Shown: one piece after another, positions 1 through 3,858 of the stretch
How positions within the stretch are numbered: position 1 is the first letter of the stretch
Layout: every line of letters begins with the position of its first letter
Assembly: GCF_006716885.1 (NCBI RefSeq)
Contig: NZ_VFPU01000001.1
Span: forward strand, 806,001 to 870,000
Direction: 5' to 3'
DNA length: 64,000 nt
Origin: Ornithinimicrobium humiphilum
Lineage (GTDB): Bacteria > Actinomycetota > Actinomycetes > Actinomycetales > Dermatophilaceae
Position numbers and translations under genes: made by a program
The notes under the pieces: model-generated
Database searches by the model: none
The model's input: only the letters and a program-made list of their open reading frames with translations
What the model was told of the DNA's origin: nothing

Positions 1-2
1 TC

Positions 3-242
3 AACATCAGCATCAGCAACAAGCCGCCGGCGGCGTACATGGCGGACATCGCCGAGCAGATCGAGACCGGCATGTTGCGCCTGGGAGAGATCAGGGATGC
101 GGGAGACCTCGCCGCGAACCTGCGGGAGAACGCGATCCCCGAGCGTCTCGACGAGATCAACTCGGGTAACTACAAGGACTTTCTCGTGGAGCGTCGCAAG
201 TTGATGGCTCGCGTCATCCGGGACTACTACCAGGCGCTCTGA
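3..242 (+). CDS. C-terminal end of a GmrSD/DUF262-DUF1524-like protein (5' truncated by window edge)
   Basis: The reading frame is open from the left edge, so only the last ~79 residues are visible. The segment with SISNKPPAAYM, followed by a charged helical tail ending in FLVERRKLMARVIRDYYQAL, resembles the end of DUF1524/GmrSD-type restriction proteins, in which an N..Is.K.PseY motif follows the HNH-like core. Catalytic residues lie outside the window, so the assignment rests on this tail only. GmrSD-type proteins cleave modified phage DNA, which fits the nuclease/helicase genes that follow. The next gene is convergent. It could be another DUF262 protein; confidence is moderate. Confidence 0.5.
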   Translation, partial: NISISNKPPAAYMADIAEQIETGMLRLGEIRDAGDLAANLRENAIPERLDEINSGNYKDFLVERRKLMARVIRDYYQAL

Positions 243-286
243 CCGAACCTAGGCCGGGCTCGGACTTCGTCTGGGCTCGGCCGCGG

Positions 287-2023
287 TCAATGACGGTTCA
301 GGTAGGTGTTCAGCGCGGTTCGCAGGTAGTCGCGGAGTACTGGGTCCACGACGTAGATGTAGGTGCCACGCATGCCCCGCGTCAGCAGGACCCGATAGAT
401 GTTGGTGATGTAGCGCTCGAGGTCAGCGTCGGTGGTGACCTTCCCGACCATCGGGTTGTTGGCCTTGCCCTTGCTGTCGAAGTAGTCATTTCGACTGATG
501 ACCAGCCTGCCGGCGCCGGGATCGTACTGAAGGTCCTTGCCGATGATGACGCCTGCGTAGTTCAGGTCGTAGCCCTGCACGGTGTGGATCGACCCGACCT
601 CCTCGAGCGCACGACGGGAGTTGATCCAGTCGGTCGCGGTGCCGTTCCAGCGCAGCCTGACCCCGTCGATCTCGATGTCTGCGGCCTGCTTGTCCTTTGC
701 GCTCACCCACTTCCACGCATACCCAGCAACGAGTCGAGACAGACCCACATCGGCATCCCGCGCCCGGATCGCCTGGTGCATCTCGGCGAGGTCGTCGAAC
801 ATCCGAAGGTCGTACGCGAAGTCGTCAGGTGCTGGGCTGGGCGTCTTGCCCGACATGACGGCAGCGATGCACTCCACGTAGGCCGACCCACCTGCGACTC
901 GCATCTGGGTGGTCAGGGGGTATAGCCGGGAGTGTGCCCGCGCCTCGGCGCACACTGCGTCCAAGGTGCTTGCGTCGAGATCAGCGGGTCGGACGCTCTG
1001 TCCCGAGTCGAGGAGCAGCACCACGTGACGGGCGCGGTGTCGGATCCAGTCCAGCTGCGTCACCGTCAGGTCGTCTTCACCACGCATCGATCGAACGATG
1101 TCGACATACCTCTTGGTCAGTGTGCCGTGCGCCTGTGCGGCCCGCTGGGTCAGGCGGTGGGCCTCGTCGACCACCACGACGTCGAAGTCTTCTGGCGACT
1201 CGGCCACGTCGAAGGCGGACAGGACACGAACGTCGCGGAGAGCTGGAATGCGCAGGAAGACCTTCTGGATGGACTTCCGGAGTGACTGCTGAGGAACGAC
1301 GAGTCCGACGTGGAGGTTCTCGAACAGGTCGCGCGAGCCCTGAAGGAAGTAGTCGGAGAAGACCGAATCGCCGTGCACCTCGTCCGAAGGGTCGAACGTT
1401 GCGAGGTCACGAAGCAGCTTGATGAGGTAGATGCCCACGACCGTCTTGCCCGTTCCTGGGCCACCTTGGATCACCGAGACGCTTCGACGGTCGGTCTCCA
1501 GGTCCTCCACCAACCCCTCCATGACCTCGTTGACGGCCACCGCCTGCTCCGTGTTCAGAGCCTTGTACGGGGAGAGCTTGAAGAGGTCCGTGTTCTCGAT
1601 CTCGGGGATGGATCGGGTGAAGTACCCCAGAGCCCGCAGTTCCTCGAAGATCTCGTCGAACTTTTTCTGGTAGTCACCGCGCTGGTAGTACTCGCGATTG
1701 GTGATTCCTTCGTTCCTGTTGAGCACGGCGTAGCGCCCGTCGCCGCTGAGGAGTCGGATCAGGTACGACTCAAGGTCGAGGCAGACCGACTTGTTGAAGC
1801 TCTTGTCGAGCACGAGGCGCACCTCCTCGAGGTGCCGTTTCGCATCCGACTGCAGGTGTTGGAAGAGCCGCCCGGTCGCGCCTCCCGTTTCTCCCACGTA
1901 GATGTCGCTGGGGCTGTGGATCAGGTAGACCACTGGCCAGTTCGACATCATCGGCTCCGCCGCATCGGCCCCCATGACCGAAGACTGGGTGAAATCGAAG
2001 TTGTGAAACCTAAAGCTTGTCAT
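287..2023 (-). CDS. GIY-YIG nuclease fused to DUF2075 superfamily I-like helicase/ATPase
   Basis: 578 residues. An N-terminal GIY-YIG fold spans about residues 30-105: VVYLI at 31-35, IYVGET at 41-46, a following Arg near 52 and the conserved Glu near 85. A DUF2075 P-loop NTPase follows, with Walker A GGPGTGKT at 187-194, a VVVDEAH Walker B/DEAH motif, and a C-terminal RGMRGTYIYVVDP block typical of DUF2075. The chosen ATG at 2023 lies inside the stop region of the upstream MazG-like gene (14-nt overlap), implying translational coupling. Known: DUF2075 proteins are helicase-like and common in defence islands. Inferred: the pair acts on foreign DNA. A longer open frame upstream of this ATG runs antisense to other sequence and looks like a high-GC shadow. 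Base composition is less GC-biased than in the housekeeping genes further on. Confidence 0.85.
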   Translation of the reverse strand: MTSFRFHNFDFTQSSVMGADAAEPMMSNWPVVYLIHSPSDIYVGETGGATGRLFQHLQSDAKRHLEEVRLVLDKSFNKSVCLDLESYLIRLLSGDGRYAVLNRNEGITNREYYQRGDYQKKFDEIFEELRALGYFTRSIPEIENTDLFKLSPYKALNTEQAVAVNEVMEGLVEDLETDRRSVSVIQGGPGTGKTVVGIYLIKLLRDLATFDPSDEVHGDSVFSDYFLQGSRDLFENLHVGLVVPQQSLRKSIQKVFLRIPALRDVRVLSAFDVAESPEDFDVVVVDEAHRLTQRAAQAHGTLTKRYVDIVRSMRGEDDLTVTQLDWIRHRARHVVLLLDSGQSVRPADLDASTLDAVCAEARAHSRLYPLTTQMRVAGGSAYVECIAAVMSGKTPSPAPDDFAYDLRMFDDLAEMHQAIRARDADVGLSRLVAGYAWKWVSAKDKQAADIEIDGVRLRWNGTATDWINSRRALEEVGSIHTVQGYDLNYAGVIIGKDLQYDPGAGRLVISRNDYFDSKGKANNPMVGKVTTDADLERYITNIYRVLLTRGMRGTYIYVVDPVLRDYLRTALNTYLNRH

Positions 2024-2330
2024 ACTTCGTGCTTCGTCCAGAGGCTTTCGAGACGGGGTACTTGGTGCGTGTCTGCTCGAGCTTCTTGAGCATGATGTGG
2101 TGCGGCTCGAGGCCGAGTCGGTCTGCGAGCAGGTAGCAGTAGGTGAGCACGTCCGCGAGTTCTTCGGAGACTGCGGCGAGGTCGGCATCGTCGTTCCACT
2201 GGAACTGCTCCAAGAGCTCACCGGCTTCGACCGAGATCGACTTCGCGAGGTTGGCGGGCGAGTGGAACTGGCTCCAGTCGCGCTCGGCCACGAACTGCCG
2301 CAGTTCGGCCAAGACCACGCGCTCATCCAC
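2010..2330 (-). CDS. MazG-like nucleotide pyrophosphohydrolase
   Basis: 106 residues with the all-alpha NTP pyrophosphohydrolase signature: E35-x-x-E38 (VEAGELLEQFQW) and E57-x-x-D60 (SEELADVLTYCY), the EXXE...EXXD metal-binding set. The family (MazG, RS21-C6, dCTPase-like) hydrolyses (d)NTPs to (d)NMP plus pyrophosphate. The length matches single-domain members. It is the promoter-proximal gene of a two-gene unit, and its 3' end overlaps the start of the GIY-YIG-DUF2075 gene. Inferred role: nucleotide depletion or clearance of modified nucleotides alongside a DNA-acting partner. The 163-bp gap to the divergent gene at 2494 should hold both promoters; I see no clear operator there. Confidence 0.8.
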   Translation of the reverse strand: MDERVVLAELRQFVAERDWSQFHSPANLAKSISVEAGELLEQFQWNDDADLAAVSEELADVLTYCYLLADRLGLEPHHIMLKKLEQTRTKYPVSKASGRSTKYDKL

Positions 2331-2493
2331 GAGGGCAACGTAGCAAATGGTCCAGAGGTGGCTGCGGCATCAGGATCCCGCAGCCCCCACTGCCGCAACG
2401 GCCTGACCGGCTTAAATGGGATCGCCCAGTCATGGTGGGTCGCCCTGAATCGTCGGTGCTCGTGGCTATGCTGCCCGGCAGGAGGGTAAACAC

Positions 2494-3858
2494 ATGGCGG
2501 AAGAATCGTGGAACGAAGCGCGCCTGATTCCGACCTCAGGGATCTCTGGCGCCGAGGAGCAGGAGCGAAGGGCGACCTCGGCGCTGCTCGCGGTGATGAC
2601 GGCGGTCCCGGACTTCAGCAGGGCCATGCTCAAGCCGCTCGGAGTGCCGGCAGGGAAGGTCGAGGCGTACATCGAGGTGCCTTTCGATCTCAACGGCCGG
2701 CGCATCTATCCGGATGGCCTGATCCGGGTGTCCCGCGGTAGTAAGCAGTGGACGGCTCTCGTCGAGGTGAAGACGGGCAAGAACGAACTGAACTCCGAGC
2801 AGCTCGAGGCATATCTCGATGTCGCGAAGGAGCAGGGTTTCGATGCGCTGTTGACGATCAGCAATGAGATTCCCCCCACCCCCGTCCAGCACCCCACCAA
2901 GGTGGACAAACGCAAGTTGCGGAAGGTGGCCATCCACCACTGGTCCTGGAGTCTCCTGCTGTCCACGGCAGTCGTGCAGAAGGAGCACCGTGGTGTCTCC
3001 GACCCCGAGCAGGCCTGGATACTCGGTGAGCTCATCCGGTACCTGGAACACCCGCGTTCCGGCGCCATGGAGTTCGATGACATGGGCAGCGAGTGGGTCA
3101 AGGTACGGCAGGCCGTCAACGCCAGCACGTTCCGCGCGAACGACAAGGGCGGCGTGGACGTCGTGGCGAGGTTCGACGCCCTGCTTCGTTATGCCAGCTT
3201 GCGACTGGGGCGTCGCCTGGGGACGGACGTGACGCCCTTGCTGTCCCGGAAAGAACTGGCCGACCCGGCGCTGCGGCCGCAGACCCTTCTCTCCGCCCTT
3301 GAGTCGGAGGGGGTGCTCACGGGAGCGATTCGCATTCCGGACGCCGTGGGCCCGCTGCACATCTCCGCCGATCTGCGCGCCGGTCAGGTCACGTGTCACA
3401 CCGACATCGACGCGCCTCGGCAAGGACGCCCCCAGACGCGCGTCAATTGGCTGATTCGTCAGCTGAAGAATGCGCCAGACTCGGTGCGACTGGAGGCCTT
3501 CATGGCCAACTCTCGCGGGCGTGGCACCACGGAGATGCTCGGTGCTGTTCGGGAGAACCCGTCTCTGCTGATCGCGGACCCGAAGCGCGACATCAAGTCG
3601 TTCCGCATCGCTCTTGCTGCCCCGATGGGCAGCAAGCGAGGACGAGGGCGGGGGACGTTCATCGATTCGGTCCTGGACCTCAGCGATGCCTTCTACATGG
3701 ATGTGCTGCAGAACCTGAAGGCCTGGTCCGCCGCCCCGCCCAAGATGCGCGACGAGAACGTCGAGGTGGCAGAGGTGGGGAGCCTGTCCTCCAATGCGCT
3801 GTCATCGCAGGACGGCCCTCTGCGCTCGACCGAGGCGGCCGACACGGCTGCTGAGTGA
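2494..3858 (+). CDS. Hypothetical protein with PD-(D/E)XK nuclease-like N-terminal domain
   Basis: 454 residues, not a family I can name. An N-terminal PD-(D/E)XK-like core is visible: an acidic helix around residues 20-24 (AEEQER), PDG at 73-75 and VEVKTG at 90-95, giving the D74...E91-x-K93 triad followed by an NELNSEQLEAYL helix, as in Holliday-resolvase/restriction-type folds. Residues ~190-430 are a long mixed region with no motif I recognise, and the C-terminus is low complexity. An SD (GGAGGG, 2481-2486) sits 7 nt before the ATG. It is divergent from the MazG gene and the last gene of the defence-like island. Nuclease activity is inferred from the triad only. Confidence 0.7.
   Translation: MAEESWNEARLIPTSGISGAEEQERRATSALLAVMTAVPDFSRAMLKPLGVPAGKVEAYIEVPFDLNGRRIYPDGLIRVSRGSKQWTALVEVKTGKNELNSEQLEAYLDVAKEQGFDALLTISNEIPPTPVQHPTKVDKRKLRKVAIHHWSWSLLLSTAVVQKEHRGVSDPEQAWILGELIRYLEHPRSGAMEFDDMGSEWVKVRQAVNASTFRANDKGGVDVVARFDALLRYASLRLGRRLGTDVTPLLSRKELADPALRPQTLLSALESEGVLTGAIRIPDAVGPLHISADLRAGQVTCHTDIDAPRQGRPQTRVNWLIRQLKNAPDSVRLEAFMANSRGRGTTEMLGAVRENPSLLIADPKRDIKSFRIALAAPMGSKRGRGRGTFIDSVLDLSDAFYMDVLQNLKAWSAAPPKMRDENVEVAEVGSLSSNALSSQDGPLRSTEAADTAAE

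Follow-up and report, generated by a model that had tools for sequence, protein, structure and literature searches.

In a window of 64 kb from Ornithinimicrobium humiphilum (the whole stretch of DNA analysed, G000:C1:806001-870000, where G000 is the window's own genome of 3.4 Mb), a gene for a small MazG-like pyrophosphohydrolase was found to overlap a gene for a nuclease-helicase, in an arrangement that is conserved in other genomes and often lies among defence genes. The pair represents a conserved, uncharacterised candidate defence module of the nuclease-helicase kind. Judged from sequence and context, it would constitute a mobile two-gene defence module, and a role in defence as such is considered rather probable. 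A previous sequence-only reading of this DNA had described the same two genes as a candidate two-gene defence system; its observation was confirmed, and its interpretation is, overall, partly supported.

Along the minus strand, the MazG gene comes first (2010..2330, 106 amino acids, GTG start; identified from the open reading frame, Pfam and homologue alignment) and the helicase gene second (287..2023, 578 amino acids; identified from the open reading frame, Pfam, alignment and a structural model). The longest frame of the helicase gene extends over 287..2398 and includes an internal ATG at 2023, which gives the 578-residue form; since M1 of this form is invariant in 51 aligned homologues, this ATG was taken as the true start in preference to the frame reaching 2398. 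The end of the MazG gene and the start of the helicase gene share 14 nt (2010..2023, minus strand), an overlap already reported by the sequence-only reading and recovered here when recomputed from the frames. The conservation of this arrangement was verified in a scan of 296 genomes of one actinobacterial class (helicase E <= 1e-40, MazG E <= 1e-6, run with no matched random genes), in which the GIY-YIG-type helicase occurred in nine genomes and was adjoined by MazG in all nine, eight of the pairs overlapping on the same strand and one (G097) being divergent. In 11 loci for which the overlap was recomputed from the frames, its length was 14 nt in eight and 20 nt in three, and in all 11 the helicase ATG is placed across Tyr-Asp codons near the MazG end. 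A scan of 198 genomes of the phylum added two GIY-type genes outside the class (G370 and G390), each with MazG directly upstream and no overlap. Considering all GIY-type loci opened, MazG lies within about 300 bp at 16 of 21, namely the nine class-scan loci, G370, G390, L014, L015, L064, L055 and L056; some MazG genes were missed by a simple gene caller based on GC by codon position and were recovered by hidden Markov model. The overlapping pair spans several families within one actinobacterial class and also occurs in one unverified phage-labelled record; looser arrangements exist in Bacillota and, where the helicase is of a non-GIY type, in a haloarchaeon. The overlapping pair is thus conserved and probably translationally coupled. 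The possibility of a chance open reading frame was ruled out by the conserved linkage and the invariant residues.

The 106-residue protein belongs to the Pfam MazG-like family PF12643 (E 1.2e-19, 70.7 bits against a cut-off of 27). The EXXE...EXXD set pointed out by the sequence-only reading is intact, with the metal ligands E35 and E38 (EXXE, 2217..2228, minus strand) and E57 and D60 (EXXD, 2151..2162, minus strand) invariant across 17 aligned sequences. Its closest relatives in the Protein Data Bank (PDB) are dCTP pyrophosphatase 1 (DCTPP1)/RS21-C6 entries (E 5.5e-17 over 94 residues), the stretches matching DCTPP1 being ERDW.QFH.P.NL, ExxE, FQW and ExxD. Additionally, a number of its database relatives bear the name dCTP diphosphatase, and some are named house-cleaning enzymes. 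By sequence similarity, the protein belongs to the DCTPP1 group, with dCTP or a 5-modified dCTP as the predicted substrate. RS21-C6/DCTPP1 and the NUDIX enzyme Orf135 have been termed 5-methyl-dCTP hydrolases (PMC10742078), and plain dCTP is also reported as a DCTPP1 substrate (PMC7162842). The window protein shares the MazG-like family with DCTPP1/RS21-C6, but it is encoded together with a nuclease-helicase and its substrate is only predicted. No PADLOC model matched it at E <= 0.1, and its single NCBIfam match was sub-threshold.

In the second protein, the motor matches PF09848 with E 8.4e-70 over residues 181-560 (344..1483, minus strand; also seen with Foldseek), as do all 51 homologues, and it carries the Walker A sequence GGPGTGKT (residues 187-194, 1442..1465, minus strand) and the Walker B sequence DEAH (residues 286-289, 1157..1168, minus strand) in columns conserved across those homologues. 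The Walker A/DEAH motor named DUF2075 in the sequence-only reading therefore stands, under a new label, since Pfam has renamed the domain 'Schlafen group 3, DNA/RNA helicase domain' (SLFN-g3). In agreement with this label, human SLFN11 (7zel) ranked first in the PDB by Foldseek (E 2.4e-10), and the fold neighbours include SLFN11, UvrD and RecD2, although the Schlafen RNase core gave no Pfam match in the window protein at E <= 0.1, so that this is not a Schlafen protein in the strict sense. The GIY-YIG-like domain occupies residues 1-110 (1694..2023, minus strand). On its own, the window protein scores below the PF01541 cut-off (E 0.075, 13.8 bits against 22.6), but 39 of the 51 homologues match this family at E <= 0.01 (best 4e-6), the helicases of L055 and L056 exceed the cut-off, and Y33, Y42, G44, R52, H56, E85 and N102 are invariant in all 51, with Tyr, Arg, Glu and Asn standing in the GIY-YIG order. 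These four residues presumably have the catalytic roles of their GIY-YIG counterparts. In the full-length model, the N-terminus adopts a strand-strand-helix-strand-helix order (E31-36, E40-46, H49-57, E67-72, H78-95), with ten-residue means of the predicted local distance difference test (pLDDT) of 84-95 up to residue 100 and of 65 for residues 101-110. No GIY-YIG chain was present in the fold list obtained with VIA-align, a list that barely probes the N-terminal domain. Taken together, the N-terminal GIY-YIG nuclease of the sequence-only reading is upheld as a GIY-YIG-like domain through the homologues and the invariant residues.

The distribution of the pair is that of an accessory element. 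In the window, it lies in the end of a low-GC island (1..3858) with 63.5% GC, versus 72.2% in the sequence that follows, and the minimum among 113 overlapping, equally long control segments from elsewhere in the window was 69.3%. The GIY type was absent from all 12 same-genus genomes, five of which gave motor-only matches, and no transfer RNA (tRNA) gene was found in the 64-kb window. Regarding phages, four phage records contained a helicase match and a viral collection contained one distant helicase relative (L065); a close-pattern search of low sensitivity found no MazG protein in that collection. By the tRNA, viral-collection and phage-record searches, this is not a typical phage gene, and a prophage origin was rejected. 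One of the four phage records (L064, MT836409.1), an unverified fecal contig labelled 'Bacteriophage sp.', has consecutive SauUSI-type, MazG and GIY-helicase genes and may in fact represent bacterial DNA or a mobile element.

The immediate neighbours of the pair also point to a defence setting. Convergent with the helicase lies the C-terminal end of a GmrSD_N (DUF262) gene (1..242, plus strand), which begins before the window; its PF03235 match (G000:C1:804485-805093, E 3.2e-28) is the only one in the nine pair genomes. Likewise, G303 holds the sole MrcB_N match of these genomes, about 3 kb from the pair. In G244 the pair is followed by a NUDIX gene and a SauUSI-type gene; G000 and G210 also carry DUF3427 genes, but far from the pair or on another contig. 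In total, five GmrSD_N, MrcB_N or DUF3427/SauUSI-type genes occur in the nine pair genomes, three of them within 5 kb of the pair. In a wider set of 11 actinobacterial loci, a restriction-type gene (GmrSD-, SauUSI-, MrcB- or restriction-modification (R-M)-type) was found within about 5 kb at six, comprising the window's own locus, L014 (SauUSI-type gene upstream), L015 (match to a type II restriction model), L066, L069 and L072 (cytosine methylase). A defence-type gene was annotated in the opened stretch at nine of ten plasmid loci. These annotations comprise a DUF3578 gene (L054), a SauUSI-type DEAD/DEAH helicase with a NUDIX gene (L055), type I R-M (L056), Cas6/Cas10 (L057), an HNH gene with an adenine methylase (L058), DUF262 with a restriction endonuclease (L059), type I R-M genes with a DUF3578-HNH gene (L061) and a methyltransferase with a restriction gene (L063). 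At the remaining locus of this list, a Lysinibacillus plasmid (L060:10026-13346), a nucleotidyltransferase-E2-Mov34 set, which resembles a cyclic-oligonucleotide-based anti-phage signalling system (CBASS), is located some 2.3 kb away from the GIY-helicase; on plasmid L062 no clear defence-type neighbour was seen.

The divergent neighbour of the pair in the window (2494..3858, plus strand, 454 amino acids) gave only sub-threshold nuclease matches in Pfam and contains the stretch VEVKTGKN, which we take to be PD-(D/E)XK-like. Another genome of the same order has a relative with 59% identity in this divergent position next to the pair (L071:10668-12023), and the gene may be a third, optional member of the module.

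This distribution bears on a different explanation, according to which the pair would be a DNA-repair or replication-stress module in which a superfamily 1 (SF1) nuclease-helicase acts at stalled forks and MazG removes damaged deoxynucleotides. The presence of SLFN11, UvrD and RecD2 among the fold neighbours and the house-cleaning names of some MazG relatives would suit such a function; however, the patchy occurrence (nine of 296 genomes, none of 12 in the genus), the low-GC island, the plasmid copies and the neighbouring R-M, CRISPR and CBASS-like genes are poorly compatible with it, and it is judged quite improbable.

Several observations weigh against the defence-module reading. The five exceptions among the 21 GIY-type loci are all Bacillota plasmids (L054, with MazG 10 kb off, and L057-L060), so that an adjoining MazG is missing at five of the seven Bacillota plasmid loci of the GIY-type protein, and MazG is therefore not always needed. 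Of ten plasmid records with at least 80% cover, seven (H1, H2, H6-H10) were opened; among the others, MazG lies about 8 kb off in H3, and H4 and H5 gave no MazG match. Conversely, MazG is commonly present without the helicase. The 74 of 296 genomes with a MazG match include all nine helicase genomes, the GIY pair thus being present in only nine of 74, and no helicase was found within about 7 kb at 19 of 20 other MazG loci opened, these being the best-scoring MazG loci without the GIY pair (43 of the 74 were not opened at this width). With solitary MazG relatives in many genomes, membership of this family does not in itself mark a defence gene. Additionally, no MazG was present in the 0.6-1.5 kb flank of the non-GIY relatives L008-L011 and L076. 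No restriction-type gene was found among the selected neighbours scanned at five of the 11 actinobacterial loci (L067, L068, L070, L071 and L073, with no neighbour scanned at L067 and L073). The probability of about 4e-7 computed for the proximity of three in five restriction-type genes is a rough guide only, because the families were picked after being seen. To these points are added the sub-threshold PF01541 score of the window protein, the poor model of the N-terminal domain when modelled alone (pLDDT 46) and the lack of any PADLOC model spanning either protein of the pair whole. Of the candidate two-gene defence system proposed in the sequence-only reading, the conserved linkage and a context often made of defence genes instead of core metabolism have held, and its suggested mechanism, nucleotide starvation triggered by foreign DNA, stays a proposal.

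The same Bacillota plasmids are relevant to the idea of a toxin-antitoxin-like addiction pair, in which the nuclease-helicase would be toxic and MazG would restrain it, directly or through its product. The layout resembles such a pair, in that a small gene lies upstream of, and overlaps, a larger one for a putative nuclease, and copies occur on plasmids. In Arthrobacter (L015:7951-9673), MazG is intact, the helicase frame stops after 34 amino acids and the remainder lies in another frame, which reflects either decay or a sequence error; this single case would be expected if loss of the toxin alone were harmless. However, most of the Bacillota plasmid copies lack an adjoining MazG, and the MazG protein resembles an enzyme with an intact active site and no typical antitoxin, which makes an addiction pair very improbable.

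Under the defence-module reading, the GIY-YIG/SLFN-type protein would be the effector, its ATP-driven SF1 motor travelling on nucleic acid and its GIY-YIG domain cutting it. MazG would be made from the same transcript, probably by translational coupling, and would hydrolyse dCTP or a C5-modified dCTP to the monophosphate. Two outcomes may be envisaged, in which either a precursor would be denied to the replicating phage, perhaps one using modified cytosine, or the host pool would be cleared of modified dCTP, sparing host DNA from its own nuclease or from neighbouring modification-dependent nucleases.

An alternative, in line with the idea of the sequence-only reading, is dCTP starvation, in which the nuclease-helicase would sense phage DNA or stalled forks and cut, while MazG would drain the dCTP pool until replication stops. 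Defences based on dCTP deaminase and dGTPase follow a comparable logic. In its favour, MazG belongs to the dCTP pyrophosphatase type and has intact metal ligands, the overlapping genes suggest matched amounts of the two products, and DefensePredictor places MazG among predicted, unvalidated nucleotide-acting defence domains (PMC13092281). However, the 106-residue MazG shows no regulatory domain or trigger, an always-active dCTPase should presumably harm the host, and many genomes contain a related MazG gene on its own, the pattern expected of a housekeeping enzyme. This alternative is regarded as rather unlikely.

The clearing of modified dCTP is prompted by the neighbours since, as judged by their sequences, several recurring ones belong to families acting on modified cytosine. 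One review states that SauUSI cuts DNA containing 5-methylcytosine (m5C) and 5-hydroxymethylcytosine (hm5C), and it lists McrBC (with DUF3578) for m5C/hm5C and GmrSD for glucosylated hm5C (PMC3874153); DUF3427 is predicted to bind modified DNA, according to a further report (PMC7159879). MazG and an SLFN-type helicase occur with a SauUSI-type gene (phospholipase D (PLD)-helicase-DUF3427) at L014, L055, L064, L066, L111 and L128, and MazG and DUF3427 lie within 10 kb in four of 24 genomes having both matches, with a proximity probability of about 1e-6 that serves as a rough guide only, the families having been chosen after being seen. Among 44 DUF3427 genes found, 21 regions were read, three of which (G244, G045 and G278) were picked for a known nearby MazG. 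In five of the 21 (L109, L113, L116, L121 and L066, the match in L116 being weaker), the SauUSI-type gene has a NUDIX gene within 150 bp, which corresponds to four of 18 unselected regions, one by the weaker match, and to one of the three selected.

On these features rests a second alternative, sanitation beside modification-dependent nucleases, in which MazG, or elsewhere a NUDIX enzyme, would remove the 5-methyl- or hydroxymethyl-dCTP that arises from digested modified phage DNA or from phage synthesis, so that host DNA stays unmarked. The recurrence at six loci, the NUDIX genes beside SauUSI-type genes, the specificity of SauUSI and the naming of DCTPP1 and Orf135 as 5-methyl-dCTP hydrolases are all consistent with it. 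However, of the 18 unselected DUF3427 regions, 14 lack an adjoining NUDIX gene and all lack MazG; the NUDIX proteins resemble MutT, MutT2 and NudG, none of them above the NudG cut-off, and the one of L061 passes the MutT (8-oxo-dGTP) cut-off; DCTPP1 also takes plain dCTP; and no recognised modified-base reader domain was found by Pfam in the GIY-helicase. Sanitation is considered less likely than not. The combination of a MazG protein of the dCTP/5-methyl-dCTP type, neighbours from modified-cytosine families and NUDIX genes beside SauUSI-type genes suggests the clearing of modified dCTP, for protection of the host or for denial to the phage. Because MazG is of the dCTP pyrophosphatase type and several neighbours come from families that include restriction enzymes for modified cytosine, such clearing explains the pair at least as well as starvation.

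The association of MazG with the motor extends beyond the GIY-YIG nuclease. In lower-identity relatives, the alignment shows the N-terminal pattern E...P.T..R.D....G......ELKQW in place of GIY-YIG, which we read as PD-(D/E)XK, L111 being excluded from this reading because the extension of its frame had given a wrong N-terminus. MazG adjoins, or lies within about 1 kb of, the PD-(D/E)XK-type helicases of L007, L061, L062, L065 and L128, and is likewise near the helicases of L012, L111 and L131; it is 6 kb away from the non-GIY relative L063. Since MazG stands beside PD-(D/E)XK-like relatives too, in bacteria and in one haloarchaeon, it can accompany the motor whichever the nuclease. In a Priestia plasmid (L061:3867-5260), an MrcB_N-HNH gene overlaps MazG by a few bases and is followed by a non-GIY SLFN helicase, with a MutT-like gene upstream.

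The two types of helicase may also share a chromosomal site. Left-flank genes of the window site recur elsewhere, four in G003 and one in G001, and at a distance of 5-8 kb both genomes have a three-gene variant, with consecutive genes for a PD-(D/E)XK-SLFN helicase, an HNH_2 nuclease and MazG (L149:6864-10025 and L150:10265-12436); its helicase copy in G003 (L150) is split into several frames. The site looks like a hotspot holding either variant, the GIY type or the PD-(D/E)XK type. No empty site was cleanly defined: one left-flank gene is common to G001, G003 and G005, but the right-flank gene is unmatched in G003 and G005 and, in G001, is located on a different contig.

A broader proposal may be derived from these arrangements, namely that the clearance of modified dCTP has been recruited repeatedly as a safety measure for nucleases that target modified DNA, the enzymes belonging to two or more unrelated folds (MazG/DCTPP1-like and NUDIX). 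The hydrolase would keep 5-methyl- or hydroxymethyl-dCTP out of host DNA, while a nuclease-helicase of the GIY-YIG- or PD-(D/E)XK-SLFN, SauUSI or MrcB_N-HNH type would destroy modified foreign DNA, the window pair being the most tightly coupled form. This proposal is considered speculative and unlikely.

None of the known systems compared coincides with the pair. The SauUSI-type type IV restriction enzymes, which are neighbours at six loci, resemble the window protein in placing a nuclease domain before an NTP-driven motor in one polypeptide. In the window protein, however, GIY-YIG takes the place of PLD and an SF1 SLFN-type motor that of the ResIII-type one, DUF3427 is missing, and a MazG gene is linked; neither the PLD nuclease nor DUF3427 matches the window protein in Pfam, which places it outside the SauUSI type. 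It differs from human SLFN11 (Schlafen group 3) by the lack of a detected Schlafen RNase core, by its GIY-YIG-like N-terminal nuclease and by the two-gene layout; bacterial Schlafen defence is cited elsewhere in the context of Schlafen RNases (PMC12839542). With respect to Gabija (GajA and GajB), the window pair has its nuclease and motor fused and a nucleotide hydrolase as second gene, and no OLD/TOPRIM nuclease was matched by Pfam in either protein, which sets it apart from that system. Nhi, AbiO and the PADLOC candidate PDC-S41 gave partial matches in the motor, and PDC-S14 one in the GIY-like region; an assignment of the helicase to a known named system was rejected, as PADLOC and NCBIfam yielded only such partial matches. 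The MazG system predicted by DefensePredictor (Fig. 6F, PMC13092281) also contains MazG and is likewise predicted and unvalidated, and GIY-YIG and DUF2075 do not appear in the main text of that paper. Among the literature matches listed, by titles and abstract openings, no described system has this pair, and none of the DUF2075 papers is about defence; to that extent, the statement of the sequence-only reading that no characterised system combines exactly these genes still holds.

Defences built on a nuclease-helicase are familiar, but none of the titles and abstract openings among the literature matches listed describes one in fixed association with an enzyme of the dCTP-pyrophosphatase type. 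The pair thus bears on the question of whether the nucleotide-pool enzymes of defence islands starve phages or shield the host from modification-dependent nucleases, as well as on the role of the Schlafen-type motor in prokaryotes.

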